Shown here: positions 7,555-32,602 of the stretch, piece after piece
Layout of the letters: every line of letters begins with the position of its first letter
Numbering within the stretch: position 1 is the first letter of the stretch
Source of the DNA: Desulfocapsa sp.
GTDB lineage: Bacteria; Desulfobacterota; Desulfobulbia; Desulfobulbales; Desulfocapsaceae
Length of the DNA: 36,865 bases
Assembly (NCBI GenBank): GCA_030145625.1
Contig: JAQYVF010000048.1
Location: 1-36,865 of the forward strand
Direction of reading: 5' to 3'
Notes under the pieces: model-generated
Databases searched by the model: none
Told to the model about the DNA's origin: nothing
The model's input: only the letters and a program-made list of their open reading frames with translations
Translations under genes and position numbers: made by a program

Positions 7555-7745
7555 GGGTCCCTTGAGAAAATAAAATTTTCGTTCAAAATCGAGGCATGAG
7601 AAAAATTTTACCACAGGTGCCCTGCAAGAATCACCCTAACTACGGGTACAAGTACCCTTGGAGTGCATATGATTGATATTCCGATGATAAAATCCTACTC
7701 ATAACGAAGAGTCTGGGCGGAAAGGCTATTTTGCAAGGTGGCCTG
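7555..7745 (+). repeat. Long hairpin repeat, copy 1, with extra apex sequence
   Basis: A copy of the dispersed imperfect palindrome described at 32459-32602. The left arm contains TTTTCGTTCAAAATCGAGGC and the right arm ends GCAAGGTGGCC. It is about 191 bp instead of 144 because some 47 bp (about 7619-7666) interrupt the apex between CAGG and CATATG. The extra piece contains its own palindrome GGGTAC-AA-GTACCC. It lies 100 bp after the TolC-like gene. Confidence 0.8.
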
Positions 7746-8089
7746 TGCTCCAATTGTCATTTGAATGGTATTTGACTGATCTTTTTCCAGGGGCAAACAA
7801 AGAGTTAGTTGCCATCTTTTTTTAATCCTCGCAACCAGTTCCGATAGTGCTCAATGCGCCTTGGGCGCAGTTTCTATAGAGCTGTCAGCCGCTCCCAGTA
7901 CCTCGGAGCTTCCTTCAACCACATTTGTAACTCTGGGGGCGACATCGGTTGTCCCGCTGTTCTGCAAAACTCTCTGAGGGGCATCTTCTTCTTAATCCAG
8001 AGCATCATCAAAGTCGCCACCAAAGGGTGCGTCACCGCCGATATTTTCGATGATGACACGGTGGTCGAATCCTATCCGAGAAAAACCAG
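7746..8089 (-). pseudogene. Decayed coding sequence between two repeat copies
   Basis: This stretch differs from the AT-rich sequence around it by a coding-like base pattern. The best frame is on the minus strand, with purine-first, pyrimidine-last codons. It reads through GFDHRVIIENIGGDAPFGG and VVEGSSEVLGAADSSIETAP but is broken by TAA at 7992-7994 and TGA at 7851-7853. It then continues as ALSELVARIKKRW up to the edge of repeat copy 1. No start codon is evident, and both ends coincide with repeat copies. Two other frames (plus 7854-8135, minus 7874-8059) are open but look like shadows. I do not recognise the protein. Non-functional. Confidence 0.4.
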
Positions 8090-8233
8090 AGGGTACCTTG
8101 AAAAATTAGAATTTTCGTTCAAAATCGAGGCATGAGAAAAGTTTTACCGCAGGCATATATTTGATATTATGAGGATAAAATTTTTCTCATAACGAAAAGT
8201 TTGGGCGAAAAGGCAATTTTGTAAGGTGGCCCG
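8090..8233 (+). repeat. Long hairpin repeat, copy 2, full length
   Basis: A full-length, about 144-bp copy in the same orientation as copies 1 and 6. It starts GGGTACCTTGAAAAATTAGA and ends GCAATTTTGTAAGGTGGCCC. It is nearly identical to the copy at 32459 through the left arm and most of the right arm. With copy 1 it brackets the decayed gene at 7746-8089. Confidence 0.85.
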
Positions 8234-8420
8234 GAGGCAATCTTCGTGAAAGCATGATGCTTGTTTGTCATGGTCAACGTACTTGTATTGCGTTGTGAAT
8301 GGCATTTTTGTCAGTTGTTATTTGTTTTTGTTTCTCACAGCAATCTTCATGAGAAACGATGGGTTAGTTCGGTAAAGGTTTTACCGGATTGTTGAGTTTG
8401 GACAACTTTGTTGTATTTGA

Positions 8421-8572
8421 GGTGTATTAAATTTGTTTGAAAAGAAGCAGTTTGATATAACTTAGTAGGTGGAAGAGTAGTTGACCGTACCAAAATTAAC
8501 ATACTTAAGCAGCATAATAAAAAGATGCGCTTTTTGGGATATGAAGAAATTGATGATGAAGAGGAATTGTAA
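8421..8572 (+). pseudogene. Possible frameshifted small coding remnant
   Basis: The plus strand from 8456 to TAA at 8570-8572 reads YNLVGGRVVDRTKINILKQ, then KKMRFLGYEEIDDEEEL, with an acidic C-terminus typical of a real protein end. An overlapping frame just upstream reads VLNLFEKKQFDIT before stopping, so a single-base indel near 8455 could join the two. No start codon or ribosome site was found. Family not recognised; this could be chance. The rest of 8234-8746 shows no convincing gene. Confidence 0.25.
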
Positions 8573-8720
8573 GAAACATCAATCAAAAGGATAGGCATGT
8601 CACTTTTATCCTTTTTTAAAGTAGGTAGTGGGGTGTAAAAAGTACTATAAAATTAAATTGTTGCAATGCAATTAAAGTTTGGGGTTCATAAGACCTTACT
8701 AGAGGGTTTCCCCATATTTG

Positions 8721-8741
8721 TATAATTTTAGCGGAAAGAGG
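8721..8741 (+). promoter_or_regulatory. Candidate wspA -10 element and ribosome site
   Basis: A perfect TATAAT lies at 8721-8726 and AAAGAGG at 8735-8741, 5 nt before the wspA ATG at 8747. The expected -35 region (8696-8703, TTACTAGA) is poor, so an activator may help. A TTGCA-A-TGCAA palindrome at 8661-8671 is a possible activator or repressor site. The implied leader is very short. Confidence 0.35.
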
Positions 8742-8746
8742 CTGCG

Positions 8747-10387
8747 ATGGCGTTTCAATTTGCAAAAAAAGTAAGTGTTCGATGGCGGTTGCTTGGTTTT
8801 ATCTTTTGTCTGCTGTTCTTTATTGCGCTTTCCGGTACAGGCGGACTGCTCGGCATGCGTGATACGAAGCTTTCTTTATCCATGGTTTACAACAGCAATG
8901 TAAAACCCATAGAAGAAATGCGGCAAATTAAAGAATTGCTGATGTATGACGTTTCAAATTCAGTGGAAAAGGTACTGTATGAACAGATAACTTGGGGTGA
9001 AGCCGTCAAAAGAGTAAAGGCAGCCACGTTAAAAATTGATAAAAAGATGAATGAATTGATATCCGTTGCTAATGAAAGCGGTAATGGTGCTGATAATTGG
9101 CTATCCAAAGATCTTTCCATGTTTGATAATAGTAAAACAATGGTCATGGAAGTGCTTGCTGTTTTACAAGAAAACGATACAGCTCAGCTTCACGGATTTT
9201 TTAATCAACGCTTGGAACCTTTTCTCGAAGATTTTGATATAAGAATCAACAGCTTGATATCAGGAAGAATAGCTGCTGTAAAAAAAGAGTATGAGCGGTC
9301 AGAGAAAAGATATGCCTGGTCCAAGGGGGCCTTTTGGGCAACAATTGTGGTGGGAGCCTGTGTCGCTCTTTCGGTAGGTTTTTTTCTGATGCAAAGCATT
9401 AATGATCTGTTAAAGCGTCTCACCAAGGCCATTAATGTAATGATGAAGGGGGATCTGACCCATAAACTGGATTATGATATAGATGATGAATTCGGAGCTC
9501 TGATTGAAGGCTTCAATCAAATGACGGATTATCTTGAGGACCTGATTGTGCAGATTCGACATGCTGGAATTCAGGTTACCAGTTCCATAACGGATATCGC
9601 TGCCAGTACACATCAGCAGGAGGCCACTGCGAATGAACATGCTATCACAGTAAGCGAAATAGCAGCTTCCACCAATCAAATTGCCGCCACCTCGGATAAT
9701 TTGATGACAACCATGAAAAAGGTCAATAGTTTGACCAAAAATGCGGCAGTGGCGGCCGAAGATGGTCATGCAGGTCTGATTAATATTGATGAGACAATGG
9801 TACAGATGGAAAAATCTACCGGATCCATTGTCAATAAGCTCTCGGTTTTAAGTGAAAAGGCAGATGATATAGCTGGCGTGGTTAAAACCATCAATAAATT
9901 GGCTGACCAGACGAACCTGCTGTCTCTTAATGCCGCTATAGAAGCGGAAAAGGCCGGAGAATACGGCATGGGATTTTCTGTGGTGGCTACTGAAATCCGC
10001 CGATTGGCGGATCAGACTGCCGTGGCCACTTATGATATTGAACAGATGGTACAGGGAGTACAGTCTGCGGTATCCTCAGCGGTTATGGGGATTGATAAGT
10101 TTGCAAAAGATGTACGGGTAAGTGTCGAAAACATCCGGGAAGGCAGTGGAAAGATGGAGGTCGTTATTGAACGGGTTCAGATCCTTAGACCTCACGTAAA
10201 TACAATCAGTGATGGCATTGAAGCCCAGTCACTGGGGGCAAAACAGATAAGCGAAGCCACCGGTCAGATTAATTCTGCTGCCCAACAGGGTGCAGAATCG
10301 ATCCGCCAGGTGAGTCTGACTATAGAACGACTTCAACAGGCCGCTCAAGGCCTGCAGAAAGCGGTTTCCAAATTCACAGTGGAATAA
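8747..10387 (+). CDS. wspA: Wsp methyl-accepting receptor (surface-sensing MCP)
   Basis: A 546-residue transmembrane chemoreceptor. TM1 is at about 13-36, a roughly 155-residue periplasmic helical domain of the four-helix-bundle type follows, TM2 is at about 194-216, then HAMP (about 217-270) and a long cytoplasmic coiled coil. The hairpin tip at about 382-424 carries the MCP signature (LADQTNLLSLNAAIEAEKAG, then FSVVATEIRRLADQTA) that binds the kinase and coupling proteins. The C-terminus (KFTVE) lacks the NWETF-type CheR tether. It is the first gene of a seven-gene operon whose order and domains match the Pseudomonas Wsp system, where WspA responds to surface contact. The stimulus here is inferred by analogy. 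Confidence 0.92.
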   Translation: MAFQFAKKVSVRWRLLGFIFCLLFFIALSGTGGLLGMRDTKLSLSMVYNSNVKPIEEMRQIKELLMYDVSNSVEKVLYEQITWGEAVKRVKAATLKIDKKMNELISVANESGNGADNWLSKDLSMFDNSKTMVMEVLAVLQENDTAQLHGFFNQRLEPFLEDFDIRINSLISGRIAAVKKEYERSEKRYAWSKGAFWATIVVGACVALSVGFFLMQSINDLLKRLTKAINVMMKGDLTHKLDYDIDDEFGALIEGFNQMTDYLEDLIVQIRHAGIQVTSSITDIAASTHQQEATANEHAITVSEIAASTNQIAATSDNLMTTMKKVNSLTKNAAVAAEDGHAGLINIDETMVQMEKSTGSIVNKLSVLSEKADDIAGVVKTINKLADQTNLLSLNAAIEAEKAGEYGMGFSVVATEIRRLADQTAVATYDIEQMVQGVQSAVSSAVMGIDKFAKDVRVSVENIREGSGKMEVVIERVQILRPHVNTISDGIEAQSLGAKQISEATGQINSAAQQGAESIRQVSLTIERLQQAAQGLQKAVSKFTVE

Positions 10388-10404
10388 CCGACACGGAGTA
10401 AGAC

Positions 10405-10848
10405 ATGCTGCTTCTGCTCTTTGAAACAAGCGATGGTCGCTATGCCCTGGATTCAAAACAGATAGTTGAAATAATACCCTATCTCGTACCCAAGAAAATC
10501 CCCGGGGCGCCTGATTATGTTGCCGGTATTATCAATTACCGAGGTGAACCAGTGCCGCTATTTGATCTCTGCATTCTTTCCGGGGGAACTTCATGCAGGC
10601 ATTTTTACAGTACGCGTATCATCTTGGTGCATTACCCGATGAGCCAGGAAAAAGATCGTCTTATCGGAATGATAGCTGAGCGAGCTACGGATGTTTTCAG
10701 ATGCAGCGAAACAGATATAAGATCATCTGGAATTCTGCTTGGCAAGGGTTCAACTTCGGGTGCCATAAAGTCAGATCAGGATGAATTAGTACAGTTGTAT
10801 AATGTGCCGCGTATGATTTCGACAGATGTTGTGCGGGAGCTGTTTTGA
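10405..10848 (+). CDS. wspB: Wsp CheW-like coupling protein
   Basis: A 147-residue single CheW domain: LLFETSDGRYALDSKQIVEI at the start, then the family's core GAPDYVAGIINYRGEPVPLFDL. CheW-type proteins bridge the receptor tip and the histidine kinase in signalling arrays. The ATG at 10405 has GGAG 6 nt upstream and lies 17 nt after wspA, so the two are co-transcribed. Position directly after the receptor and before the CheR-TPR gene identifies it as WspB rather than WspD, which is the second CheW gene of such operons. Confidence 0.9.
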   Translation: MLLLLFETSDGRYALDSKQIVEIIPYLVPKKIPGAPDYVAGIINYRGEPVPLFDLCILSGGTSCRHFYSTRIILVHYPMSQEKDRLIGMIAERATDVFRCSETDIRSSGILLGKGSTSGAIKSDQDELVQLYNVPRMISTDVVRELF

Positions 10849-10921
10849 ATAAGGGGGACGCATAACTAAGTCATTGGCATAGACGCCTGATTTAGTCGTT
10901 TTGATTGAATGGAACTATAAA

Positions 10922-10973
10922 ACCAGCCAGTCTCAATTTGAGTATTTTGCTGGTAATATTGACACATTATAAT
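10922..10973 (+). promoter_or_regulatory. Nested hairpin and possible internal promoter before wspC
   Basis: The 173-bp wspB-wspC gap is the longest in the operon. ACCAGC (10922-10927) pairs with GCTGGT (10949-10954), and inside it CTCAA-T-TTGAG (10932-10942) is a second inverted repeat. TATAAT at 10968-10973 follows, with only a poor -35 (TTTGCT, 10946-10951). It may attenuate or re-initiate transcription, giving different levels of the receptor genes and the enzymes. There is no T-tract after the hairpin. Confidence 0.35.
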
Positions 10974-11021
10974 AACCCGTAATGATTGCCTGGCATGAGT
11001 GACAATCAGGATCATATTTGA

Positions 11022-12263
11022 ATGCAAGTGGCGAAACAAAAAATTGCCGATCTACTTGAGAAGACAATCGGCTTAAATGTAACATCTTTTAGCAACGCAA
11101 CCTTTCAAAGGGCATTAGGAACCCGCATGAAGGCTTTAGGAACAGATGATTTTACCGCATATTTCGGCCAGGTTTCTGTTTCACCGGAGGAGTTGCGAAT
11201 GTTGGTCGAAGAGGTGGTGGTCCCGGAAACCTGGTTTTTCAGGGACCAGGAACCTTTTGTTTTCCTTGCCGATTTTATTTCGAAGTCGAAAAAAAAGCTG
11301 GCTAACGTCAACTTTCGCATATTAAGCCTTCCCTGTTCAACCGGAGAGGAGCCCTATTCCATAGCCATGACTTTGATGCAGGCGGGTCTTGAACCTTCAG
11401 ATTATTCTATTGACGCTGTTGATGTCAGCGAACAGGTTTTGGCATTTGCCCGGGAAGGTGTCTATAAGAATAATTCATTTCGGACAAACGATCTTACTTT
11501 CAGAGAAAAATATTTTTACAAAGTAGGGGATGAATTCGCCATTAAAAAAAAGGTCCGTGAAAACATCCGTTTTTTTCAGGGAAATATGTTACAGCCCGGC
11601 TTCCTGGAAAATTTGGGACGTTATGATGTCGTTTTCTGCCGCAATGTCCTTATTTATTTTAACCAAGATGCCCAAAAACACACGATCGAATCCATTTTTA
11701 ACCTCCTCAGGCCTGATGGGCTTTTATTTACCGGACATTCGGAAGCAAACCTTTTTATTGAAACAAGGTTCCATCCAGTCTCACATTCTATGGCTTTTTC
11801 CTTTTATAAAAAAAGTGTTGGGCAGTCCAAATCGGTTCGACAGGAGTCTTCCAAAAGCAGTACGCAGGCGAACAGGCCGTCCATGTCTTCACCATTATCT
11901 TACCGACAGCCCAAGCCATCTCTTGTGTGTCCTCAGAAACCAAAAAAAGATGAATACGAATTTGTTCAGCAATTAGCTGATGAAGGCAAGCTGGAAGAAG
12001 CTGCTGGTCGCTGTGAAAAGTATATGCGGCTCAATGATCATTCAGCAAAATGGTATTGCCTTCTTGGGATTATTCGTGACAGCCAGGGGAACCAGGAAGA
12101 TGCCATGGAGCTCTTGCGAAAGGCTGTTTATCTTGCCCCGGATAATGTTGAAAGTTTGATTCAGTTGTCATTACTCACAGAACGTGCTGGAGATTTTAAG
12201 AGAGCATTAAATTACAAAAGGCGGGCCAAGAAACTCCAGCAGGAAGGAAATAACAGTGACTGA
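11022..12263 (+). CDS. wspC: Wsp CheR methyltransferase with TPR domain
   Basis: A 413-residue chemoreceptor glutamate methyltransferase. The CheR N-terminal helical domain is at about 5-75, with VVPETWFFRDQEPF leading into the SAM-binding Rossmann domain (ILSLPCSTGEEPYSIAM, about 100-116; YDVVFCRNVLIYFN, about 201-214). A variable linker follows, and two to three TPR repeats occupy about 312-405. The CheR-TPR fusion is the WspC architecture. It methylates WspA for adaptation, opposed by WspF. The Shine-Dalgarno is weak. The preceding nine-codon ATG-to-TGA mini-frame abuts the ATG (TGAATG), which could allow translational coupling. The end overlaps wspD by 8 nt. Confidence 0.92.
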   Translation: MQVAKQKIADLLEKTIGLNVTSFSNATFQRALGTRMKALGTDDFTAYFGQVSVSPEELRMLVEEVVVPETWFFRDQEPFVFLADFISKSKKKLANVNFRILSLPCSTGEEPYSIAMTLMQAGLEPSDYSIDAVDVSEQVLAFAREGVYKNNSFRTNDLTFREKYFYKVGDEFAIKKKVRENIRFFQGNMLQPGFLENLGRYDVVFCRNVLIYFNQDAQKHTIESIFNLLRPDGLLFTGHSEANLFIETRFHPVSHSMAFSFYKKSVGQSKSVRQESSKSSTQANRPSMSSPLSYRQPKPSLVCPQKPKKDEYEFVQQLADEGKLEEAAGRCEKYMRLNDHSAKWYCLLGIIRDSQGNQEDAMELLRKAVYLAPDNVESLIQLSLLTERAGDFKRALNYKRRAKKLQQEGNNSD

Positions 12264-12951
12264 AGAAAAGAAAACAGAAGCCTTGATGGTTGTTGATGAT
12301 TGCTGGAATAAAATCGGTGTCTGGAGTAATTCGTCCAGACTTTGCTCCGAACTTGAGACGATTATCCATTGCCGGAATTGTCCTGTTTATTCTTCTGTCG
12401 GTCGTAACTTGCTGGATCGCCCTGTACCTGAAGAATACGGTAATGAGTGGACGTCGGCTTTTTCAAAAATCACAGCACAGGAAAAAACAATTATTCACAC
12501 TGTGTTTGTTTTCCGAGCCGGGGGGGATTGGCTTGCCCTACCGGCTAAACTTATTCAAGAGGTTGTTGATATGGGGGTGATTCACAGTCTTCCTCATCGC
12601 AGCAGTACTATCCTGCGGGGTGTCGTCAATGTTCGCGGTAAACTGGAGCTTTGTTTCTCGATAGGTGCAGTACTTGACATTGAGCGTTTTGAGAAAGTTG
12701 TCGACAGAGGCGATAGAAATGTCTCTCCTGTCCGGTTAGTTGTGGCGGAACGGGAAGGCGAAAGGATCGTCTTTCCTGTAAGCAGTGTGTATGGATCTTT
12801 CCGTTATACAGAGGGGATGCTGCAGCAGTCACCTGTTACAATTTCCGGCTCAAAAGCAGCCTATACTAAAGGGATTCTGTGTGTGGAAGATTTTGATGTG
12901 GGCATCCTCGATGACCAGCTTCTTTTTGGTGCCCTAAAGAGGAATATGTAA
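12256..12951 (+). CDS. wspD: Wsp second CheW-like coupling protein
   Basis: A 231-residue protein with the distinctive WspD N-terminal region. DDCWNKIGVW is followed by the cysteine motif HCRNCPVYSS (about residues 45-54). A CheW domain follows from about 80 (FVFRAGGDWLALPAKLIQEV, then RGVVNVRGKLELCFSIGAVL). The cysteines are typical of WspD proteins, and their role is unknown. It starts at GTG 12256 with AGGAAGGA upstream, overlapping wspC by 8 nt. Its stop (TAATG) shares a base with the wspE start. It couples receptor and kinase together with WspB. Confidence 0.9.
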   Translation: MTEEKKTEALMVVDDCWNKIGVWSNSSRLCSELETIIHCRNCPVYSSVGRNLLDRPVPEEYGNEWTSAFSKITAQEKTIIHTVFVFRAGGDWLALPAKLIQEVVDMGVIHSLPHRSSTILRGVVNVRGKLELCFSIGAVLDIERFEKVVDRGDRNVSPVRLVVAEREGERIVFPVSSVYGSFRYTEGMLQQSPVTISGSKAAYTKGILCVEDFDVGILDDQLLFGALKRNM

Positions 12952-15900
12952 TGACCGGTACTGGTAACGACCTGAACTCTATGTCCATGATGAATCTTTT
13001 CTGTCAGGAGACGGAAAATCATTGCGCCGGCCTCTCAAGCAAGCTTCTTTCCTTAAAAAATAACTCTGCTGATAAGGAATCCTGGCACCCGTTCATACAG
13101 GCTACACATTCAATAAAGGGCGCTGCTCAGATTATGGGTTTTGAAAGTGTTGTCAACCTGTCCAGCAGTATGGAGAGTGTTTTTGCTGGAGCCCGGAAAG
13201 GCCGGATCGTCCCAGGAAAGGACGATATTGATTTGCTGCTTAAGGCATTGGATACGTTTGAAAAAATAGCGAATGTCGAAAGTGACAAAGTCGAGGGCTG
13301 GCTTGCCGGACAGAAGACAGAGATTGAAAAACTTACAAATGATATTATGGCTGTCTCAGAGGAAAGAAGAGAAAAGAAGGTGGTGGCAAAAGAAAAGGAT
13401 TCAGCCAGCAAAGGTGATAAAGGCTTTTCTCCTACCGGGAAATCAAAAGGGAACAACACAAATAAGACAAAAGAATCACCTCCGGACCTGAGTTCTCTAT
13501 CCATGATGGACCTTTTTCGGCAGGAAGCGGAAAATCATTGCGCTGCCCTTACTGATAATCTTCTTGCCCTTGAGAAGAATTCATCAGATTCAGAGGTGTT
13601 GGCATCACTCATGAGAGCTGCGCATTCCATAAAAGGCGCAGCTCGGATAATGAATCTGCAGAGTATTGTTGACCTGGCCCATGCTATGGAGGACATCTTT
13701 GTTGCAGCCCAGGAGAATAGGGTTGCAATTGGCACAGAGGATATTGACCTGCTGTTTAACGGCGTGGATAAGCTGGAGGAATTAGGGCATGCCCCAAACG
13801 ATGAAGTCAATGACTGGCTGGCCGGAGAGAAGGAAGAGATAGAAAGACTTGTAGGTGAATTTTCACATCTGGTTGCCAAAGACAAGGAAGAAAAAACGTC
13901 CCTGGATAAAGGACCTCCAAGAGAAGACTCCGTCTCGGCTGCCAAGGTAGAAAAAGGAGATACAATAGACCTGAGTTCCATGTCCATGCTGGATCTTTTC
14001 CGCCAGGAGGCGGAAACTAATTGTTTAGTCCTTTCGGATAATCTCCTCGCCCTGGAAAAGAACCCTGAAGATTCCGAGGTATTGGCTTCGCTCATGAGAG
14101 CTGCACATTCCATAAAGGGTGCCGCCCGGGTTATAAATCTTCATAGTATCGTCGGTCTGGCCCATACCATGGAAGATGTATTTGTCGCAGCACAGGAGGG
14201 AAAGGTTGGCTTGGGCCGTGATCATGTTGACATGCTGCTGAACGGGACGGACCTGTTCGCTGCTATTGCCGAACATCCCAATGAGCAACTTGATGCATGG
14301 TTTAAAGAGCAGGAAAGAACGATTAAGGACCTGGAGAAAATATTCACGGAAATGGCTGCAGGCAAAGTCCCTGGAACAGTGCCCCGAGCCCCTGCAAAAT
14401 CGCAACAGATTCCGGTAAAGAAAAAAAGAGGCACGGATCAGGCGGAAACGGGAAAACCCGCAGACCGTTCTATGCGGGTATCAGCGGATGGTATGAATCG
14501 TCTTATGGGGTTTGCCGGGGAAGTGCAGGTTGAGTCTCGTTGGCTACCATCTTTTTCCCGGAAAGTTCTGCGTTTTAAGCACAGGCAGGATGAAATCTAT
14601 CGTCTCCTTGGTAAAAGTGTTGATACCTTTGGTTCTGGTTCGCTAGAGGATTTCAGTATAAGCGATTTTCGGGCAATAGTAGCCAAGATGAATTCCTGCC
14701 GCAGCCATCTTAACGAAATTCTAGAAGAAATTGAGGACCATTCCCGCCGTTCAACAGAAATTTCCCATCACCTGTATGAAGAAGTCCTTGCCAATAGAAT
14801 GCGGCCCTTTACCGATGGAATTACCGGTTTTCCGCGTATGGTACGAGATGTTGGCCGTGAACTGGGCAAGAATGTTGAATTTAAGATTATCGGAGAAGAA
14901 ACTCTGGTTGACAGGGATATCCTCGATAAAATAGAGGCGCCGCTTAACCATCTGATACGAAACGCCATTGACCACGGCATAGAATTACCCCAGCATCGAA
15001 TTGATGCCCGTAAACCTGAACTCGCCCTCATTAGTCTTGAAGCCAAACACAGTGCGGGAATGTTGAGCATTATTGTCAGCGATGATGGCTGTGGCATTGA
15101 TATTGAAAAATTACGTGATGCAGTTATTGCCAAAAAGATGCTCGGTGAAGAAATGGCGCATCAATTGAGAGAGGCGGAGCTGCTTGAGTTTATCTTTTTA
15201 CCAAATTTCAGTACCCGCGATGTGGCAGGTAAAGTGTCAGGACGAGGAGTCGGTCTGGATGTTGTGCATAGTGCGGTGCAGGAGGTTCGGGGAATTATCC
15301 GTACCTCCACCGAATTAGGGGTTGGCACAACCTTTGAAATGCAGCTTCCCTTAACCCTGTCAGTAATGCGATCTCTTCTAGTTGAAATCAGTAACGAGGT
15401 ATATGCCTTTCCCCTTGCAGCAATAGATCGCGTCATCAGGATGCAAAGGGATGATGTCAGGGAAATAGAGGGACGGCAGTATATTTCTTTTAACCAGGAG
15501 CGTGTCGGACTTGTGTCTGCGACCCAGGTACTTGAGAAAGAAGAGAAAACAGATCATCAGGATGAGCACGATGAGCTGCTCATCCTGGTAATCAGCGACC
15601 ATTATCACCGATACGGGCTGATCGTTGACGAGTTCATTGAAATACGAGATCTTGTTGTGCAGCGGCTGGACCCGCGCCTGAAAAAGGTTCAGGATATAAG
15701 TTCGGTGGCTATTCTCGAGGACGGTATACCGGTATTGATCGTTGATGTGGATGATATGATCAGGACCATAGATTCACTGATTTTAGGCAACAGGTTGAGG
15801 CGAATCGACAGGGAGGAATTTTTCATTGAACGTCCCGTAAAACGGATCCTGGTTGTTGATGATTCAATAACTGTACGTGAAGTAGAGAGGAATATGCTTT

Positions 15901-16214
15901 TTGTGAAGGGCTACGATGTGATGACAGCGGTTGATGGATTGGATGGCTGGAATACCCTGCGCAGCGAGGAATTTGATTTAGTTGTAACAGATGTTGATAT
16001 GCCTCGCATGAATGGAATTGAGCTGGTAACCCAAATGCGCCAGGATGCAAACTTCTCAACTCTGCCGGTGATAATTGTTTCGTATAAAGATCGGGAAGAA
16101 GATCGTAAACGCGGCCTTGAAGCGGGAGCAGATTATTATTTAACCAAGGGAAGTTTCCAGGATGAAGCCCTTGTCAAGGCAGTGGAGGATTTGATAGGTG
16201 CAGCGTCAAAATAA
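12951..16214 (+). CDS. wspE: Wsp hybrid CheA kinase with three Hpt domains
   Basis: A 1087-residue CheA-type kinase with a C-terminal receiver. Three tandem Hpt domains at about 10-120, 180-290 and 342-450 each keep the phosphorylatable His in HSIKGAA (H53, H225, H386). A charged linker and dimerisation region follow. The HATPase domain is at about 655-800 (N-box HLIRNAIDHGIE, G-boxes DDGCGID and GRGVGLDVV), then a CheW-like regulatory domain (about 803-945) and a receiver (about 964-1083, acceptor D1014 in VVTDVDMPRMNG). Pseudomonas WspE is about 750 residues with one Hpt, so this protein is expanded. Hpt2 and Hpt3 are nearly identical over long stretches, suggesting recent duplication. It should phosphorylate WspR and WspF. 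Confidence 0.93.
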   Translation: MTGTGNDLNSMSMMNLFCQETENHCAGLSSKLLSLKNNSADKESWHPFIQATHSIKGAAQIMGFESVVNLSSSMESVFAGARKGRIVPGKDDIDLLLKALDTFEKIANVESDKVEGWLAGQKTEIEKLTNDIMAVSEERREKKVVAKEKDSASKGDKGFSPTGKSKGNNTNKTKESPPDLSSLSMMDLFRQEAENHCAALTDNLLALEKNSSDSEVLASLMRAAHSIKGAARIMNLQSIVDLAHAMEDIFVAAQENRVAIGTEDIDLLFNGVDKLEELGHAPNDEVNDWLAGEKEEIERLVGEFSHLVAKDKEEKTSLDKGPPREDSVSAAKVEKGDTIDLSSMSMLDLFRQEAETNCLVLSDNLLALEKNPEDSEVLASLMRAAHSIKGAARVINLHSIVGLAHTMEDVFVAAQEGKVGLGRDHVDMLLNGTDLFAAIAEHPNEQLDAWFKEQERTIKDLEKIFTEMAAGKVPGTVPRAPAKSQQIPVKKKRGTDQAETGKPADRSMRVSADGMNRLMGFAGEVQVESRWLPSFSRKVLRFKHRQDEIYRLLGKSVDTFGSGSLEDFSISDFRAIVAKMNSCRSHLNEILEEIEDHSRRSTEISHHLYEEVLANRMRPFTDGITGFPRMVRDVGRELGKNVEFKIIGEETLVDRDILDKIEAPLNHLIRNAIDHGIELPQHRIDARKPELALISLEAKHSAGMLSIIVSDDGCGIDIEKLRDAVIAKKMLGEEMAHQLREAELLEFIFLPNFSTRDVAGKVSGRGVGLDVVHSAVQEVRGIIRTSTELGVGTTFEMQLPLTLSVMRSLLVEISNEVYAFPLAAIDRVIRMQRDDVREIEGRQYISFNQERVGLVSATQVLEKEEKTDHQDEHDELLILVISDHYHRYGLIVDEFIEIRDLVVQRLDPRLKKVQDISSVAILEDGIPVLIVDVDDMIRTIDSLILGNRLRRIDREEFFIERPVKRILVVDDSITVREVERNMLFVKGYDVMTAVDGLDGWNTLRSEEFDLVVTDVDMPRMNGIELVTQMRQDANFSTLPVIIVSYKDREEDRKRGLEAGADYYLTKGSFQDEALVKAVEDLIGAASK

Positions 16215-16253
16215 GAACAAAATAAAATCGAAAGTGTCTTCTGCGAGGTGCAT

Positions 16254-17279
16254 GTGAATCTTGCAATAGTCAATGATCTGCCCATGGCTGTTGAGATACT
16301 TCGGCGGTTTGTTACAGTCAAAGGAAAGCATGAGATTATCTGGGTGGCAGAAAACGGTAAGATTGCGATTGAGAAATGTGCTCACCAGGTACCTGACCTG
16401 ATTTTGATGGATTTGGTCATGCCGGTCATGAACGGAGTTGAATCAGTCCGGTGGATTATGAAGTTGAGCCCCTGCCCGATCCTGGTGGTGACGGCAAGCG
16501 TTGAGAGTAACTCTGGTTTAGTATTCGAGGCTATGGGTGCGGGAGCTCTTGATGTTGTGGCTACCCCGATTCTGGATGCGGACAAAGGAGAAGGAGGCCA
16601 GGAGCTACTTCAGAAGATCGATAGGATTGGAAAGATTGTCGGAATCAATGGGCTATCTGTTTCTCAACCCCGGAATCAGGCATGGGGAACAAGACCAAAA
16701 CTGGAGAGCAGAGGGGAATGTCTGGTTGCAATCGGTAGTTCAACCGGAGGCCCAAGGGCTCTATTGAATATCCTGCAGACAATTCCTGCGGATTCAACTG
16801 CTTCCTTTGTCGTAATTCAGCATATGGATGAGTTGTTTTCCGGAGGTATGGCGAAGTGGCTTGATAAGCAGGTAAAAGTTAAGGTACGAGTATTAAAAGA
16901 AGGGGAGCTCCCGCAACCGGGAGTGGTTCTGATTCCGTCTACCGACAACCATGTAGTAATGTATCCCAATAAATCAGTTGGCTATTCAATTGAACAGAAA
17001 GAGAGTTTTTATCATCCTTCAGTGGATGTCTTTTTTAACAGTGTGGCCCGTTACTGGCGCGGGAGATGTATTGGGATAATTTTAACAGGGATGGGGAGAG
17101 ACGGGGCGGAAGGGCTACTTGCCCTTCGTCAACAGGGCTATGTTACCATCGCCCAAGATCAGAAAAGTTCAGTTGTTTTTGGTATGCCTAAGGCAGCAAT
17201 AGAAATGGATGCAGCCCAGAAAATCCTACCGATTGATGCTATTGGTTTAACAATTAATGATTTATTAGCAGCGCAATAG
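16254..17279 (+). CDS. wspF: Wsp CheB-type methylesterase
   Basis: A 341-residue response regulator-methylesterase. The N-terminal receiver has the acceptor Asp in ILMDLVMPVMNG. The C-terminal CheB domain carries the catalytic Ser (AIGSSTGGPRALL), His (VIQHMDELFSGGM) and Asp (ILTGMGRDGAEG). It removes methyl groups from WspA. In Pseudomonas, loss of WspF locks the pathway on. I prefer GTG 16254, giving MNLAIVND as in other WspF proteins. GAGG (16245-16248) is properly spaced for it but would overlap the alternative GTG at 16248. The gene follows wspE by 39 nt and precedes wspR by 10 nt. Confidence 0.92.
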   Translation: MNLAIVNDLPMAVEILRRFVTVKGKHEIIWVAENGKIAIEKCAHQVPDLILMDLVMPVMNGVESVRWIMKLSPCPILVVTASVESNSGLVFEAMGAGALDVVATPILDADKGEGGQELLQKIDRIGKIVGINGLSVSQPRNQAWGTRPKLESRGECLVAIGSSTGGPRALLNILQTIPADSTASFVVIQHMDELFSGGMAKWLDKQVKVKVRVLKEGELPQPGVVLIPSTDNHVVMYPNKSVGYSIEQKESFYHPSVDVFFNSVARYWRGRCIGIILTGMGRDGAEGLLALRQQGYVTIAQDQKSSVVFGMPKAAIEMDAAQKILPIDAIGLTINDLLAAQ

Positions 17280-17289
17280 TGAGAAGATA

Positions 17290-18315
17290 ATGGCTGAGCT
17301 TAATGTTGAAAACGGAAAGAAGCTCAATGAGATAACGTCGTATAGAATAAGGGTTCTTCTGGTTGATGATCAGCCGATAATTGCCGAGGCAGTAAGAAGG
17401 GCCCTAGCCGAGGAAGACATAGATTTTCATTATTGCCAGGATCCTACCAATGCAGTGAAAATGGCCACGGAACTGTTGCCGACTATTATTCTTCAGGACC
17501 TTGTCATGCCTGAGATTGATGGACTTACCATGGTGAAATTCTATCGGGCCAGCCCTGTCCTTCTCCATGTACCTATTATCGTTCTTTCAACGAAGGAGGA
17601 GCCTGAGATAAAGAGTAAGGCTTTTGAGTTTGGAGCCAATGACTATATTGTCAAGCTGCCGGATAAGATGGAGTTGGTTGCACGTATTCGTTATCATTCC
17701 CAGTCCTATATCAACCAGAAGCAACGTGACGAAGCCTTTGATGCCCTGGTGAAAAGCCAGAAAGAGCTTGCCGCGGCCAATGCAATTTTACAAAAACTCT
17801 CATCGCTGGATGGCCTGACCGGTATCCCGAATCGCAGGCGATTTGATGAAGTGCTGAAAGCAGAATGGCAGAGGTCAATACGTCACGCCACTTCTATTTC
17901 ACTTATAATGTTGGATATCGATTTTTTTAAGTTATTCAATGATACATACGGTCACCAGGGGGGAGACGATTGTTTGAAACGGGTAGCCAAAACCCTGGAT
18001 GAATCGGTGTCTCGCGAAACAGATATGGTGGCTCGCTATGGAGGTGAGGAATTTGCGGCGATCCTGCCTGAAACTGGTGTTAAAGGCGCTTTAGTCGTGG
18101 CCGAGGAAATGCGGGCAAATATTGAAAAACAAAATATCTCTCATGAAAGTTCCAAGGTCGCTGATTATGTAACAATTAGTGTGGGGGTGGCCACGTGGGT
18201 GCCTGAACGTTACTCGAAGTCGGATGAACTTATTGCTCTGGCTGATCAGGCCCTGTATGCGGCCAAGGAAATAGGTCGAAACCGGGTGATAAGCGCCGGT
18301 GTAAAATTGGAGTAA
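17290..18315 (+). CDS. wspR: Wsp output diguanylate cyclase (REC-GGDEF)
   Basis: A 341-residue response regulator that makes cyclic di-GMP. The receiver is at about 20-135 with acceptor D70 (IILQDLVMPEIDG) and the conserved Lys at 122. A helical linker (about 140-172) joins the GGDEF domain (about 173-338), which begins SLDGLTGIPNRRRFDE and contains the active-site GGEEF at 251-255. The inhibitory I-site RETD (242-245) is intact five residues upstream, so product feedback is expected. It is the last gene of the operon. Phosphorylation by WspE should activate it. No phosphodiesterase or c-di-GMP effector is encoded nearby, so targets lie outside the window. Confidence 0.94.
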   Translation: MAELNVENGKKLNEITSYRIRVLLVDDQPIIAEAVRRALAEEDIDFHYCQDPTNAVKMATELLPTIILQDLVMPEIDGLTMVKFYRASPVLLHVPIIVLSTKEEPEIKSKAFEFGANDYIVKLPDKMELVARIRYHSQSYINQKQRDEAFDALVKSQKELAAANAILQKLSSLDGLTGIPNRRRFDEVLKAEWQRSIRHATSISLIMLDIDFFKLFNDTYGHQGGDDCLKRVAKTLDESVSRETDMVARYGGEEFAAILPETGVKGALVVAEEMRANIEKQNISHESSKVADYVTISVGVATWVPERYSKSDELIALADQALYAAKEIGRNRVISAGVKLE

Positions 18316-20762: not shown

Positions 20763-20838
20763 TAGGCTACTTCGGAAAATTGCCATTTTGTCCAAGCTCT
20801 TCGTCACAGCAAAAAATCTAATTTTTCAAGGTACCCTT
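20763..20838 (-). repeat. Long hairpin repeat, copy 3, apex deleted
   Basis: A 76-bp derivative. The outer right arm (TAGGCTACTTCGGAAAATTG, then TTTTGTCCAAGCTCTTCGTC) is joined directly to the outer left arm (AATCTAATTTTTCAAGGTAC). The central ~65 bp of the standard element is missing. It lies in the 68-145 bp upstream of the secreted-protein gene, probably within its leader or promoter. Confidence 0.7.
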
Positions 20839-21165
20839 TAGGATATTTAAAAAAGAAGTTCATCCCTAGGCGGAAAGAGGCTTGATCTTTTCCAGCATCA
20901 CTCTCAATAAGCTTTCCTGGCAAAAAATGGATCTCTGTCGCAATATTTTTATTTATTTTCCAGTTTACACCTAATTACATCTGAGTGCCAATAAACCTTG
21001 ACTCTCTTGCAAGTTGCCGACATACAAATTGTAGGCCACCTTGCAAAATTGCCTTTTCGGCCAAATTTTTCTCATACCTCTATTTTGAATGAACATTCTA
21101 ATCTTTCAAGAAATTCTGTATTTGTTCCTATGTAAAAAGTATCATTAGTATTGGCCTGCGAAGAA
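20839..21165 (-). pseudogene. Decayed outer-membrane beta-barrel gene remnant
   Basis: On the minus strand, 20839-21030 reads RFIGTQM, then TAA at 20975-20977, then LGVNWKINKNIATEIHF and ASFRLGMNFFFKYP. This has the alternating pattern of a C-terminal barrel strand. A second in-frame piece, NTNDTFYIGTNTEF (about 21117-21165), lies on the far side of repeat copy 4. The final strand runs straight into copy 3. The pattern resembles the C-terminal end of alginate-export-type (AlgE-like) porins, an impression only. There is no start and at least one internal stop. This remnant, with copies 3 and 4, accounts for most of the 546-bp gap 20695-21240. Confidence 0.5.
21031..21115 (-). repeat. Long hairpin repeat, copy 4, apex deleted
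   Basis: An 85-bp derivative. The right arm (TAGGCCACCTTGCAAAATTG, CCTTTTCGGCCAAA) is followed by TTTCTCATACCTCTATTTTG and the left arm (ATTCTAATCTTTCAAG). About 55 bp of the central region is missing. It separates the two pieces of the decayed beta-barrel gene, so it may have inserted into it. Confidence 0.7.
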
Positions 21166-23121: not shown

Positions 23122-24153
23122 TTACTCATGGGGGTAGCCGTTCTTATCAAAATTGAGGTCTGTAAAGGCGTAGGAATAGGGGTGGTCTCCTCTGAAGTGG
23201 TACTGGTTTTTCTGGTTAAAGCCGATAGCCTGCTGCATGGCATTGAAGTCTAATCGCCATTTTCCTTCTTTTTCTTTAAAAAACCAGGGATGGCATTGTC
23301 GCTGTTGAACCGGATAACGGATCACGGCCAGCTGTTCGTCATGATTATAAAAAACTTGAGACGAGTATGCGCTGCAGCGCTGAATACCTTGTGCCGCATT
23401 GCGCATTTGCACAGGCGTTACAGTCCATTCTTTGAGCATGGCTCTGGTCGCATCTGTATAGATGTTCAGTTCCGGGTCCTTGTTGCCATTGGCCATGGCT
23501 GTTTGATAGACTAGGAGGGTGGCTCGGGGATCATTGCCGGGGTGGATCATTTCTGAATGTAGAGTCGGCGGAGAGGCAGCAATGGTTTCTGTATTGCCGA
23601 TCCTGGCCTCTGCAGTGGCTCCGCCACCTGTGGGAAGGGTTGTTCTTGGAGGAACCTGAAAGTCTTTACCCAAAGATGCCTGGCGGGCGCGTTCATAGAT
23701 CATTTCGCTGGCTGCCAGGACCCCGTCTTTTATGCGTCGCTCCTGGAAAAAGTAAACCATATGCTGCTGCTGGATATATCCGCTGAAGGCATCTGTGTAG
23801 ATCCCCTCCAGGTCGCCGGATATCTCCAGGCGAGTTAGGTCATTTCCGCTGTCAATGAGGAGGAGGATTACTCTCCCCTGTCTGCTTTGTGTTGTTGCTG
23901 CCAACTCCTCCATAAGACTGTTGGCTCGGAGATTGAATGCTTCACGCTCCGGGGTACGATCTTCCAGGATGAGACGAAAATCAATGTCATGGTCCTGAAG
24001 CAGGGCTGTATGGTAGTGTTGGAGAGCGGTTTTTTCATTCAGACTGAGCATTCCTGCCTCGTCTGTCACGGTCTGTGGATCACTGTTGCCGGAACTATTG
24101 CATCCGGTTAGGAGGAGGCAGAGAAGAAAGAGAGAAATGATACAATTTTTCAT
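23122..24153 (-). CDS. TPM-domain lipoprotein
   Basis: A 343-residue lipoprotein: the signal peptide ends in the lipobox LLTGC (Cys18). Residues about 28-160 form a TPM domain (the fold of TLP18.3/Psb32-type proteins), visible as VTDEAGMLSLNEKTALQHYH, later RQGRVILLLIDSGNDLTRLE and DAFSGYIQQQHMVYFFQE. A roughly 120-residue C-terminal domain with two Cys (CSAYSS, QRQCHPWFF) follows a flexible linker; I do not recognise it. ATG 24153 is chosen because it places the lipobox correctly. The longer frame would start at a GTG inside a repeat copy. It probably heads an operon with the antiporter. Role unknown; TPM proteins often act in envelope quality control. Confidence 0.75.
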   Translation of the reverse strand: MKNCIISLFLLCLLLTGCNSSGNSDPQTVTDEAGMLSLNEKTALQHYHTALLQDHDIDFRLILEDRTPEREAFNLRANSLMEELAATTQSRQGRVILLLIDSGNDLTRLEISGDLEGIYTDAFSGYIQQQHMVYFFQERRIKDGVLAASEMIYERARQASLGKDFQVPPRTTLPTGGGATAEARIGNTETIAASPPTLHSEMIHPGNDPRATLLVYQTAMANGNKDPELNIYTDATRAMLKEWTVTPVQMRNAAQGIQRCSAYSSQVFYNHDEQLAVIRYPVQQRQCHPWFFKEKEGKWRLDFNAMQQAIGFNQKNQYHFRGDHPYSYAFTDLNFDKNGYPHE

Positions 24154-24208
24154 GGCGGCGAGGCCTTGGTTGATGGTTGTACAGCACGTCAGAATCTCTT
24201 TTCTTTTG

Positions 24209-24352
24209 CTGGCCACCTCGTATAATTGCCTTTTTGTCCAAGCTCTTCATCACAACCAAAAAAAATAATGCTCACATATCAATTATATGCTGCGCTTATC
24301 TTTTCGTCTGCTCCTCGGTCTTGAACAAAAAATCTAATTTCTCAAGGTACCT
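24209..24352 (-). repeat. Long hairpin repeat, copy 5, full length, diverged
   Basis: A 144-bp copy in inverted orientation relative to copy 6: GGCCACCTCGTATAATTGCC at the left edge and AATCTAATTTCTCAAGGTAC at the right. The central part has drifted most. It lies 56 bp upstream of the lipoprotein ATG and may contribute to its leader. The rest of the 393-bp gap, 24353-24490, shows nothing I can call. Confidence 0.75.
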
Positions 24353-27863: not shown

Positions 27864-27869
27864 ATGTTT

Positions 27870-28063: not shown

Positions 28064-28288
28064 ATTACGGGGTATTTTTAAAACTCTAATTTTTAGATTC
28101 AGGTCCAGGCCAATAAGAAATTGTTTGTAGTCTATGTCGTTGGTATTGTGGTAGTAATGTCGTGGTGTATGGGCGGTAATAACTTTGTGGCAAGGAAATA
28201 AATGCGAAATAGCAAGGTGCTACCTGGATTGCTTCTTGTCTCGCTGAGTTTGAATGGCAAGCAAAATTCTTTTTGAGTTACATTAAAA

Positions 28289-30113: not shown

Positions 30114-30865
30114 GAAAAACAGCATGTATCACTGGAGCAACCTCAGGGTTTGGCAAGGCATGTGCGGAAATCTTTGCAGAAAAAGGTTGGAATCTGGTAC
30201 TCTCCGGACGGCGTGCAGAACGTTTGCAGGAATTGAAGGAGAATCTTACAGGTGTTGAAGTTCATACCGCTGTTTGCGATGTTCGGGACAAAGTCCAGGT
30301 GCAGGCAATGATAGACGAACTGCCTGAGTCTCATAGTGCAATTGATCTCCTTGTCAATAATGCTGGACTGGCCCTGGGTATGAATCCGGCCCAGGAAGCG
30401 GACCTGGAAGACTGGGAGACCATGGTTGATACAAATATCAAGGGGCTGATGTATATGACTCGAGCTCTATTGCCTGCCATGGTTGCCCGCGGGCAGGGGC
30501 ATGTCGTTAATATGGGTTCTATTGCCGGTTCCTGGCCTTATCCGGGTGGAAACGCATACGGGGGCACCAAGGCCTTTGTGGAGCAGTTTTCCAATAATCT
30601 GCGTGCTGATCTGCACGGCACGGGAGTGCGGGTCTCTAACGTTGAGCCGGGAATGGCGGAGTCTGAATTTTCAGTGGTCCGTTTTCAGGGGGATCAGACA
30701 AAGGCCGATGCAGTGTATGAGGGTACCGAACCGCTAACTCCCAGAGATATTGCAGAGATTGTTTACTGGATCGCCGATCGTCCGTCTCATGTTAATATTA
30801 ACCGGGTGGAAGTTATGCCTGTGTGTCAGAGCTGGAGTCCGTTTGCCATTCATCGGAAAGAATAG
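30110..30865 (+). CDS. Short-chain dehydrogenase (YdfG-like)
   Basis: A 251-residue classical SDR oxidoreductase. The cofactor-binding glycine motif is TGATSGFG (8-15), and an Arg pair follows the second strand (LSGRRAERL), favouring NADP. NNAG is at 83-86, and the catalytic S137, Y150 and K154 lie in GSIAGSWPYPGGNAYGGTK. The overall pattern, including FSVVRFQGDQTKADAVYEG and the ending NRVEVMPVCQSWSPF, is that of the YdfG group, which oxidises serine, allo-threonine and 3-hydroxy acids. Start ATGA overlaps the aminotransferase stop. The pairing with a class V PLP enzyme suggests amino- or hydroxy-acid chemistry, an inference only. No terminator is apparent after it. Confidence 0.9.
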   Translation: MRKTACITGATSGFGKACAEIFAEKGWNLVLSGRRAERLQELKENLTGVEVHTAVCDVRDKVQVQAMIDELPESHSAIDLLVNNAGLALGMNPAQEADLEDWETMVDTNIKGLMYMTRALLPAMVARGQGHVVNMGSIAGSWPYPGGNAYGGTKAFVEQFSNNLRADLHGTGVRVSNVEPGMAESEFSVVRFQGDQTKADAVYEGTEPLTPRDIAEIVYWIADRPSHVNINRVEVMPVCQSWSPFAIHRKE

Positions 30866-31015
30866 AGGGAGGCTGGTTGCAGGGTTGGCAAGAGAATTAA
30901 CGATTCGGAAAGAATTGCAGAAATCTTCACTAATTGCTAGACTGAAACAAGTTGATTACTGAGCATTGTTTAGCCAGATATACAATATTACACCTATATG
31001 ACGAAGGAGGGGGAA

Positions 31016-31858
31016 ATGGGTAGGAAGTGTCTGATAGTTTTCATGCTGGTCTTGCTGCTGCCGGTGGGAGCACTTGCCGGGAATAAGAGTCCCTGGGAGG
31101 TGAAGCTGCCGTTTAAGAGTGCAACCATTCATTATACGATCAGTGGCGTAGAAAATGGTAGTGAAATTAAGTATATTCGTGACTATGGTCGCGAGGTTGC
31201 CACCTACCATACCACAAAGACATCCATGATGGGAATGACCATGGTGAGTGAAACTGTGGATATATACACCCCGGACTGGCAGTACCATTTTGACCTGAAT
31301 GAGAAGACGGGAACCAAGAGTGTAAATCCTCAGAAATATATGATTGAGGAGTACAAGAAGCTCTCGAAGGCTGAACGGAAACAGGTCGAAGAGAATTCAG
31401 AAAAGATGGGAACATCCGTTGCTGATGGGTTTGGCGGAAGTGTCCAGCAAAATGCAGAAAAGATCCTGGGGTACAACTGTGATCGGGCCGAGATGATGGG
31501 TACTGTGTCTTATAGTATTCACGCCAGCGGTATTCCTCTTCGCCTCGAGAGTAATATGATGGGGATGAGCATGAAGATTGAGGCGACCTCAGTGGATGAA
31601 GGAAGGGTGCCCGGCAAATTTTTTCAGATTCCTCAGGGAATTGAGCCGCAATATGATCCACAGTCCGATGCCATGGCCCGTGAGATGGCCAGGCAGACCA
31701 TTGCCATGCTGAAAGATCCGGAAAGTGCCAAGAAAAAGGGCGGAGTACCCAGTATGCAGGGGCCGGGACAGCAGCAGTTGACTCCGGAAGAACAGGAGCA
31801 GATGGAGCAGGCCATGGATATGTTGAAAGGGATGTTCGGCAATCCGAACCAGCAGTAG
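31016..31858 (+). CDS. Exported Met/Gln-rich hypothetical protein
   Basis: A 280-residue exported protein. The start at 31016 is chosen because AAGGAGGGGGA (31004-31014) sits just before it; an upstream in-frame ATG (30998) would place that ribosome site inside the gene. The signal peptide is residues 1-19 (LLLPVGALA-GN). The mature part is beta-rich with Met-rich stretches (TSMMGMTMVSE, SNMMGMSMKIEA) and ends in a Gln/Glu/Met-rich tail (QQQLTPEEQEQMEQAMDML). It resembles DUF4412-type periplasmic proteins, an uncertain assignment. The methionine clusters might bind a soft metal such as copper, but that is speculation. A strong terminator follows. Confidence 0.7.
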   Translation: MGRKCLIVFMLVLLLPVGALAGNKSPWEVKLPFKSATIHYTISGVENGSEIKYIRDYGREVATYHTTKTSMMGMTMVSETVDIYTPDWQYHFDLNEKTGTKSVNPQKYMIEEYKKLSKAERKQVEENSEKMGTSVADGFGGSVQQNAEKILGYNCDRAEMMGTVSYSIHASGIPLRLESNMMGMSMKIEATSVDEGRVPGKFFQIPQGIEPQYDPQSDAMAREMARQTIAMLKDPESAKKKGGVPSMQGPGQQQLTPEEQEQMEQAMDMLKGMFGNPNQQ

Positions 31859-31876
31859 GCTAGCACACTCGATCAC

Positions 31877-31926
31877 AAAAATGGCCTGGCTGGGAAATGA
31901 ATATCCCATACCAGGCCATTTTTTTT
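31877..31926. terminator. Bidirectional rho-independent terminator
   Basis: AAAAATGGCCTGG (31877-31889) pairs with CCAGGCCATTTTT (31911-31923), with an inner TGGGA/TCCCA stem. A run of T follows to 31926, and there is an A-run on the opposite flank. It ends the plus-strand gene at 31858 and the convergent minus-strand gene at 31962. Confidence 0.92.
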
Positions 31927-31961
31927 GGAAAATAGAGTGGAGAATCTAAGTGGCTGGTGCT

Positions 31962-32429
31962 TTAAAATGTGCTGTCAATTCCTCCAAATGGGCGTCGAGA
32001 TTTCTGGGGGTTCATTGGTGTGTAGATGGTGACCGTGCCGTTTTCTTCTTTAATCGTTGTCCAGTCGGCCCAATTTATTGAGTACCAGAGGCCAAGCTCT
32101 TTTCCTTCGGCAGAATAGATGACGTAGCCGTCGTACTGGTTACGTATTCCCCGAAGATCGGGATCGATTATCCGCATCCAGGAGCAGAGTTGTTTTTGAT
32201 CAAGGGCAATCGGTTTCCATAGTCCCTTTTCAAAGGTAAATTCTTTTTTGACTGCGAGAATGACATTGGGTTGTGCTTCCGGACCGTTATAGTAGTAGTC
32301 ATATCCTGGGAGTACGATACAGGCCTCAAAGTTTGAGGTGATTTCTTTGTTTAGCTTCAGGTTTCCTGTTTTCCCAATCTGACAGGAGGAAAGAAGAAGG
32401 ATAACAGCAAGGAGAAAGAGTGTTTTCAT
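31962..32429 (-). CDS. Small lipoprotein, unknown function
   Basis: A 155-residue lipoprotein with a lipobox LLSSC (Cys16). The mature protein contains ACIVLPGYDYYYNGPEAQP, WKPIALDQKQLCSWMRIIDP and a Trp-rich ELGLWYSINWADWTTI stretch, so it is probably a compact beta-rich domain. I do not recognise the family. ATG 32429 is chosen because it positions the lipobox. The longer frame (to 32492) begins inside repeat copy 6, which contributes the spurious N-terminal codons. No strong ribosome site is seen. It converges with the exported Met-rich protein at a shared terminator. Confidence 0.65.
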   Translation of the reverse strand: MKTLFLLAVILLLSSCQIGKTGNLKLNKEITSNFEACIVLPGYDYYYNGPEAQPNVILAVKKEFTFEKGLWKPIALDQKQLCSWMRIIDPDLRGIRNQYDGYVIYSAEGKELGLWYSINWADWTTIKEENGTVTIYTPMNPQKSRRPFGGIDSTF

Positions 32430-32458
32430 AGTCGCACCATAATAGGGAAGAAAGAATA

Positions 32459-32602
32459 GAGGGTATCTTGAAAAATTAGAATTTTCGTTCAAAATCGAGG
32501 CGTGAGAAAAATTTTACCGCAGGCATATGTTCGATATTCCGAGGATAAAGATTTTCTCATAACGAAGATGTTGGACGAAAAGGCAATTTTGCAAGGTGGC
32601 CT
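32459..32602 (+). repeat. Long hairpin repeat, copy 6, best-preserved
   Basis: The reference copy, about 144 bp. The outer left arm (CTTGAAAAATTAGAATTTTC, GTTCAAAATC) is complementary, with a few mismatches, to the outer right arm (GTTGGACGAAAAGGCAATTT, TGCAAGGTGGCC). Inside, TGAGAAAAATTTTACC pairs with GGATAAAGATTTTCTCA, leaving an apex around CATATGTTCGATATTCC. The whole unit can fold as one long imperfect hairpin. It encodes no protein. It lies between two lipoprotein genes and directly upstream of a promoter. Five more copies occur in the window. Confidence 0.88.

Follow-up and report, generated by a model that had tools for sequence, protein, structure and literature searches.

A 36,865-nucleotide stretch of DNA from Desulfocapsa sp. 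(assembly GCA_030145625.1, contig JAQYVF010000048.1, positions 1 to 36,865 of the forward strand), hereafter called the window, carries six copies of a short intergenic repeat that folds into a long hairpin. An earlier note on this DNA, made from the letters alone, had described these six sites as a family of about 144 bp, present in both orientations and resembling either a miniature inverted-repeat transposable element (MITE) or a repetitive extragenic palindrome/bacterial interspersed mosaic element (REP/BIME). We found that all six sites do belong to one family, with three copies on the plus strand and three on the minus strand. The borders were refined: the unit begins and ends at GGGTA...GTGGCC, and the full length is therefore 141 bp. 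The copies and the target duplication of the one at 32461-32601 are as follows.

7555-7743, plus strand: length variant of 189 bp with an extra stretch near the hairpin apex, flanked by TGTA and TGTG (3 of 4 letters alike).
8091-8231, plus strand: full copy of 141 bp, flanked by CAGA and CGGA (3 of 4 letters alike).
20763-20838, minus strand: copy with an internal deletion (right arm 20764-20804, left arm 20812-20837).
21031-21115, minus strand: copy with an internal deletion (right arm matches 21033-21071, left arm 21058-21111).
24211-24351, minus strand: diverged, near-full copy (profile positions 2-141; 72% identity to 32461-32601).
32457-32460: TAGA, left target duplication of the copy 32461-32601.
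32461-32601, plus strand: full copy of 141 bp, GGGTATCTTG...GCAAGGTGGCC.
32602-32605: TAGA, right target duplication of the copy 32461-32601.

In the two copies with internal deletions, the middle part of the unit is gone. The long hairpin that the earlier note had read from the letters was borne out by the predicted RNA fold of 32460-32602 (-51.8 kcal/mol, z -6.45), which none of 200 shuffled sequences equalled in stability; the complement of the same segment gave -32.6 and a z of -4.08. The diverged copy at 24211 folds poorly when read on the plus strand of the window (z -1.89, equalled by 5 of 200 shuffles); in the orientation of the element the fold is good (z -5.48). The 141-bp unit could hold 47 codons at most. 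A frame of 93 residues (7854-8135) overlaps the copy at 8091-8231 and has no Pfam match, while the frames 23122-24216 and 31962-32492 reach into copies only by upstream, possibly wrong, starts. No Rfam family reached its gathering cut-off in the window, and in a set of six loci the single Rfam match was below its cut-off and outside the element.

The content of the whole genome (4.98 Mb in 229 contigs) was then analyzed. The exact left-end pattern GGGTAYCTTGNAAAATT occurs 94 times and the exact right-end pattern GGNNACCTTGNAAAATT 88 times, as compared to 0 for the reversed-pattern control of each, so that these numbers are not due to chance. A covariance model (R1), built from 38 copies, matched all of the 150 candidates that were scored, with at least 96 bits each. 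Since a first look named 2220 candidates and only 150 of them were scored, the genome contains at least 150 copies, and the further copies that the earlier note had made a condition of its proposal are thus present. The 39 best-scoring copies were all 141 bp long and on average 2.7% off the consensus, figures to be read knowing that the length script could return at most 141 bp and that divergence across all copies is higher. Further length classes exist, of 166-168 bp and 188-190 bp, together with one copy of 83 bp. By eye, the apical extension of the 188-190-bp class (loci L077-L091 and window 7555-7743) resembles a second small hairpin (GGTGCCCTGCAAG...CCCTTGGGGTGC).

Copies are bordered by target duplications of fixed length. 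A perfect 4-bp duplication was found in 33 of the 37 copies of this genome for which both flanks were available (37 of 39 fetched), and an exact one in 11 of 14 copies of the other lengths (83 and 166-190 bp). The duplications sit directly outside GGG and GGCC, and TTAA, TAAA and TTTA are common sites. When all collected copies with tips of this kind, called type A, were considered, 83 of 113 had an exact 4-bp duplication, whereas at no other length tested from 2 to 8 did more than 6 of 113 agree. The body, that is the approximately 105 bp between the tips, is present in every one of these copies.

As to a mobilizing enzyme, the earlier note's remark that no cognate transposase is visible is correct for the window, as far as it was examined. 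In the whole genome the Pfam model DDE_Tnp_1 gave four hits, none of them between element ends and one with a 189-bp copy upstream. An end-only pattern searched in 56 genomes gave hits mostly without partner ends, and a 2.7-kb pair of opposite ends on one contig (C200) turned out to be two separate short copies. In one relative (G011), however, a near-identical tip with another continuation was found at contig ends, where it leads into the start of a transposase. These hits led to an IS5-family element: with the 33 residues of the transposase start as query, matches were obtained in 11 of the 56 genomes, and six insertion sequence (IS) copies with both tips were delimited.

IS5-family element with the same tips, genome G023: 1302 bp, TATA duplication.
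IS5-family element with the same tips, genome G052: 1314 bp, TAAA duplication.
IS5-family element with the same tips, genome G024: 1332 bp, GGAA duplication.
IS copy with both tips, genome G002: 1116 bp, degraded, no duplication.
IS copy with both tips, genome G033: 1322 bp, no duplication.
IS copy with both tips, genome G024: 1334 bp, no duplication.

Six more copies of the 1334-bp form are present in G024, and four of them have duplications. The IS tips differ by at most three letters from GGGNNCCTTGAAAAAT, the tip of the repeat being GGGTACCTTGAAAAAT. All four partner proteins tested belong to the IS5 family (257-280 bits with NF033581, cut-off 140), and the partner transposases carry the Pfam domains DDE_Tnp_1 and DUF772. 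The search for an IS with the same ends, which the earlier note had proposed, was therefore successful in relatives.

The repeat is thus a short, non-coding, high-copy unit with terminal inverted repeats and target-site duplication, as MITEs are. Because of its terminal inverted repeats, its 4-bp duplications and the IS5-family elements with the same tips in relatives, there is strong support for its being, in this genome, a MITE with IS5-type ends. Of the two identities that the earlier note had offered, this favours the first. REPs are 20-40 bp long (PMC3733652), whereas here a 141-bp unit (with classes of 166-168 and 188-190 bp) is accompanied by duplications; on this basis the REP/BIME assignment is not supported, no search for a RAYT gene having been made. 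When the interiors of the six IS copies were searched with a profile of the body built from 47 copies, there was no hit at E 10. Only the tips are common to both, so that the repeat works like an IS5 MITE but did not arise from these IS copies by simple deletion.

This body is not confined to the host. By blastn, copies were found in 42 of the 56 genomes, and in a class sample of 192 genomes the covariance model (E 1e-5) found them in 133, the host's own being included in both counts; all the matching genomes listed for the class belong to one order. In a sample of the phylum, 72 of 395 genomes matched, 9 inside the order and 63 outside it, the latter in 29 families. Among these 63, 51 reach 1e-12; the remaining 12 are weaker and some of them may be due to chance. 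The window copy had no match in phages or plasmids, and viral contigs gave no exact match, the pattern used there being that of the host's own type of body only. When four other copies were used as queries against plasmids, the one record retrieved was CP026659.1 (Deltaproteobacteria bacterium Smac51, cockroach hindgut), with four full copies of at least 79 bits and one partial copy of 34 bits.

The copies outside the order are about 139-143 bp long and retain the body. Tips resembling type A are seen in some of them and different tips in many. Four further types were distinguished, of which C, D and E comprise few copies each.

Type B: tip GTGTCCATCC(A/G)GAAAT; of 34 copies that contain the body, 19 have a 6-bp duplication (often TANNTA) and 3 one of 7 bp.
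Type C: tip GAGGCTGTCCGAGAAT; exact 4-bp duplication, CTAG, in 4 of 8.
Type D: tip GAGACCTTTGAAAAA; 5-bp duplication in 4 of 10.
Type E: tip GAAGTCATTTCATAAAT, in Smac51; TA in 3 of 4, TTA in the fourth.

If seven elements with the same tip and no match to the body profile are added to type B, the 6-bp duplication is found in 23 of 41. When 19 bases were trimmed from each end, 27 of 27 bodies of types B, C and D matched the type A body profile (E 1e-26 to 7e-11), and the reversed controls gave one match, at E 7.5. On a tree of the bodies only, made from 47 copies, the tip type changes 6 times, as compared to a mean of 21 and a lowest value of 18 with shuffled labels; type B appears at three places and type A at several. 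The clearest view of the change is offered by genome G380. Its body is 91% identical to the type D body of G533 and 76% identical to the type B body of G402, which belongs to the same family as G380. Its tips show the opposite: the left one is 100% and the right one 94% identical to that of G402, and both are 59% identical to those of G533. This mismatch indicates that tips and body parted company. That the hairpin body was kept over the phylum while the ends changed is, on this evidence, well supported.

Some other elements with a GTGTCC tip were also observed. Three short ones (L242, L250 and L256) combine this tip with an interior (ACCCTAA...CCCTCCCCCTTGATGGGGGAGGG) that is unrelated; a second tip, with TAACTA or TATATA at both sides, is present in L250 and L256. 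Four others (L245, L252, L253 and L259), of 174-176 bp, have a GTGTCC tip about 36 bp outside an inner tip similar to GTTTCC. The inner part of L253 matches the covariance model (57 bits), and the body profile found nothing in any of the four. These double-tip elements are possibly intermediates of end exchange.

The hairpin shows paired changes. In alignment A1, made of copies from within the order, two-sided changes were seen at 23 of 37 pairs (99 cells, as compared to 23 in shuffled and 9-26 in slid controls). In A3, which contains 47 copies of the five tip types, they were seen at 38 of 52 pairs (360 cells, against a mean of 105 in shuffled and 39-111 in slid controls), and 93.7% of the cells are paired, against 77.4% in shuffles. 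Inside the tips there are 34 pairs, and 19 of these are found in at least two Watson-Crick types.

The changes are also unequal between the strands. To avoid the bias of RNA energy rules, a strand-neutral pairing was defined by aligning a 79-copy consensus to its reverse complement. In the 55 helical pairs (at least one quarter Watson-Crick), 331 G.T were counted against 71 A.C, and G.T prevails in 36 pairs against 11 (sign test, p 0.0003); two neighbouring pairs, 28-115 and 29-114, supply 109 of the 331. The plus strand is predicted to be more stable in 75 of 79 copies, and RNAalifold scored the alignment at -42.6 and its complement at -17.0. Single copies show a weak strand bias (G.T 3 and A.C 1 in the host's own consensus), several having more A.C than G.T, and the bias is clearer on the 79-copy alignment. 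In addition, purine-purine mismatches are conserved on the plus strand: G40.A102 in 45 of 47 copies, A21.G122 in 40, A38.G104 in 39 and G59.A82 in 38. Tandem G.A at 33-34 and 46-47 is common and not universal. The excess of G.T over A.C suggests selection on a single-stranded, probably RNA, fold, although some mismatches do not fit. From these models of the fold, we regard support for selection on a one-strand fold as moderate.

Taken together, these results make it probable that the repeat is a non-autonomous MITE, mobilized in this lineage by IS5-family transposases, with a phylum-wide hairpin body on which tips have been exchanged and whose plus-strand fold is under selection. The ends and the duplications are observed, and IS5-family (NF033581-type) DDE transposases would recognize GGGNNCCTTGAAAAAT-type ends and move the repeat in trans, generating the 4-bp duplications. 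Across the phylum the tips have changed on a body that was kept, so that five or more tip types are now seen on related bodies, the duplications being of 4, 6, 4 (CTAG), 5 and 2 bp for types A to E. The length of the duplication is a property of the transposase, and for this reason we infer that several different transposases have moved related bodies. The compensatory changes, the excess of G.T over A.C and the conserved G.A mismatches point to selection acting on the single-stranded fold of the plus strand, most likely as RNA. Read-through RNA would fold into a hairpin broken by G.A mismatches, and this hairpin would make insertions tolerable to the transcription of neighbouring genes, allowing the high copy number. 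Such a tolerance function is the role that we prefer for the body. More tentatively, and with somewhat less conviction than doubt, the body itself may be regarded as the unit of selection, namely a phylum-wide satellite that would swap its ends to fit the active transposase of the host, and whose fold would act as RNA or single-stranded DNA; in this respect, G.A mismatches are frequent at 20-21, 33-34, 46-47 and 59, which are 13 nt apart.

Several observations speak against this interpretation and have to be set beside it. With regard to mobilization, the host assembly contains no transposase over the NF033581 cut-off, only one weak match (E 8e-8), and among the 56 relatives the cut-off is passed in only 6, whereas the repeat is present in 42. 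Duplications are absent in three of the six delimited IS copies. Tip types B to E are all without a known autonomous partner; the search for partners of type B and C tips in 16 genomes gave other short elements and chance hits, and no transposase was seen in the eight loci with frames that were inspected. With regard to the exchange of tips, support in the tree is moderate (0.83 with FastTree and 85 with IQ-TREE for the group of G380 with type D, most other nodes being weaker). Moreover, type B and D tips are 60% and 72% identical to the host's own tip (34% for type C), so the change may be in part a gradual divergence.

With regard to the fold, the structures used for covariation were derived from the very copies that they were tested on, an advantage over their slid versions, and the shared ancestry of the copies makes the counts non-independent. 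Over all 68 pairs the excess is smaller (G.T 355 and A.C 183; 39 pairs against 14, p 0.0008), because C.A and A.C predominate at the pairs 41-101 (62 of 79 copies) and 37-105 (41 of 79), and 64-78 is C.T in 53 of 79 copies. G.T pairs and tandem G.A are stable in single-stranded DNA, too. Finally, a crude frame finder placed frames on both sides of 89 of 106 copies (one or both sides failed in the other 17). Between co-directional genes, 30 copies point with transcription and 27 against it, and 18 copies lie between divergent and 14 between convergent genes; this absence of orientation bias counts against a role in cis on mRNAs.

Among the alternatives, an ordinary IS5-derived MITE survives best, though we consider it unlikely. 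In this case the tips alone would matter, the body would be passive, and its palindrome would be kept by template-switch (quasi-palindrome) correction during replication. The tips and the duplications do suit IS5-family elements, palindrome correction can yield paired changes without selection, and the lack of orientation bias relative to genes agrees with a passive body. However, correction should remove mismatches, and the four purine-purine mismatches are kept in 38-45 of 47 copies; it predicts no excess of G.T over A.C; and a passive body should not remain recognizable under a change of tips. Less probable still is that the body represents an independent family of non-coding RNA genes, repeatedly captured as cargo between different transposon ends. 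The conservation and covariation of the body over tip types and the strand bias would follow from it, but a length that stays near 139-143 bp across tip types looks like replacement of the tips in place, at least 150 copies in one genome are unlike an RNA gene, and the element has no Rfam match. Very improbable, lastly, is a plus strand acting as single-stranded DNA, its hairpin recognized, for example, in replication or by an HUH (Y1) transposase as in REP/BIME or IS200/IS605: strand bias and G.A mismatches would suit it as well and the Smac51 plasmid with its four copies has an annotated IS200/IS605 transposase gene, but target duplications of fixed length are not expected of HUH transposases and the same tips are carried by IS5-family elements. 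An attC site, a k-turn and an integration host factor (IHF) site were dropped on judgement by eye only.

The exchange of ends on a MITE is of interest since, to our knowledge, bacterial MITEs have mostly been described from single species or genera and have been defined by their ends. In the present case it is the ends that vary and the body that stays constant, across 29 families that lie outside the order of the host. Cargo and transposase of a MITE are thus separable, which suggests that exchanging its ends allows a non-autonomous element to persist longer than its partners, and the conserved fold may have a job of its own. In practice, one covariance model could annotate many intergenic hairpins that are at present unexplained.

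Two other features of the window were noted. Near its left edge, at 240-491, lies a C-terminal remnant of a Mutator/IS256-type transposase (PF00872, E 1.3e-6). Positions 8747-18315 hold a chemosensory cluster with a methyl-accepting protein, two CheW-like proteins, CheR (PF01739), CheA (with three Hpt matches and a receiver domain), a CheB-like protein and a receiver-GGDEF protein; CheR and CheA were checked by Pfam and the other members were assigned by eye.

In the literature that was searched, including PMC10969869, PMC4853749 and PMC2229807, no description of such an element was seen. The nearest known systems are IS5-family elements and their MITEs, which share the GGGNNCCTTGAAAAAT-type tips, the 4-bp duplications and an IS5-family transposase in relatives; unlike them, the repeat has a body that is missing from the six IS interiors and that also occurs under four other tip types. 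According to PMC2229807, ERIC (127 bp, enterobacterial, counted here with RU-1) is likewise a short non-coding repeat with duplications whose transcript forms a long stem-loop, but it is listed with a 7-bp terminal repeat and TA ends. It also differs in sequence, as the window copy has no blastn match (E 0.01) in 20,395 E. coli records, which carry ERIC. The Chunjie MITE of Geobacter uraniireducens resembles our repeat in having length variants inside one genome; its length, 178-235 bp according to the review PMC10969869, is different. CIR repeats of alphaproteobacteria, of about 110 bp, have an RNA structure that is phylogenetically conserved, but according to PMC2229807 they consist of two arms and a linker and have no terminal repeat, whereas the element described here is one long arm that ends in transposon tips.

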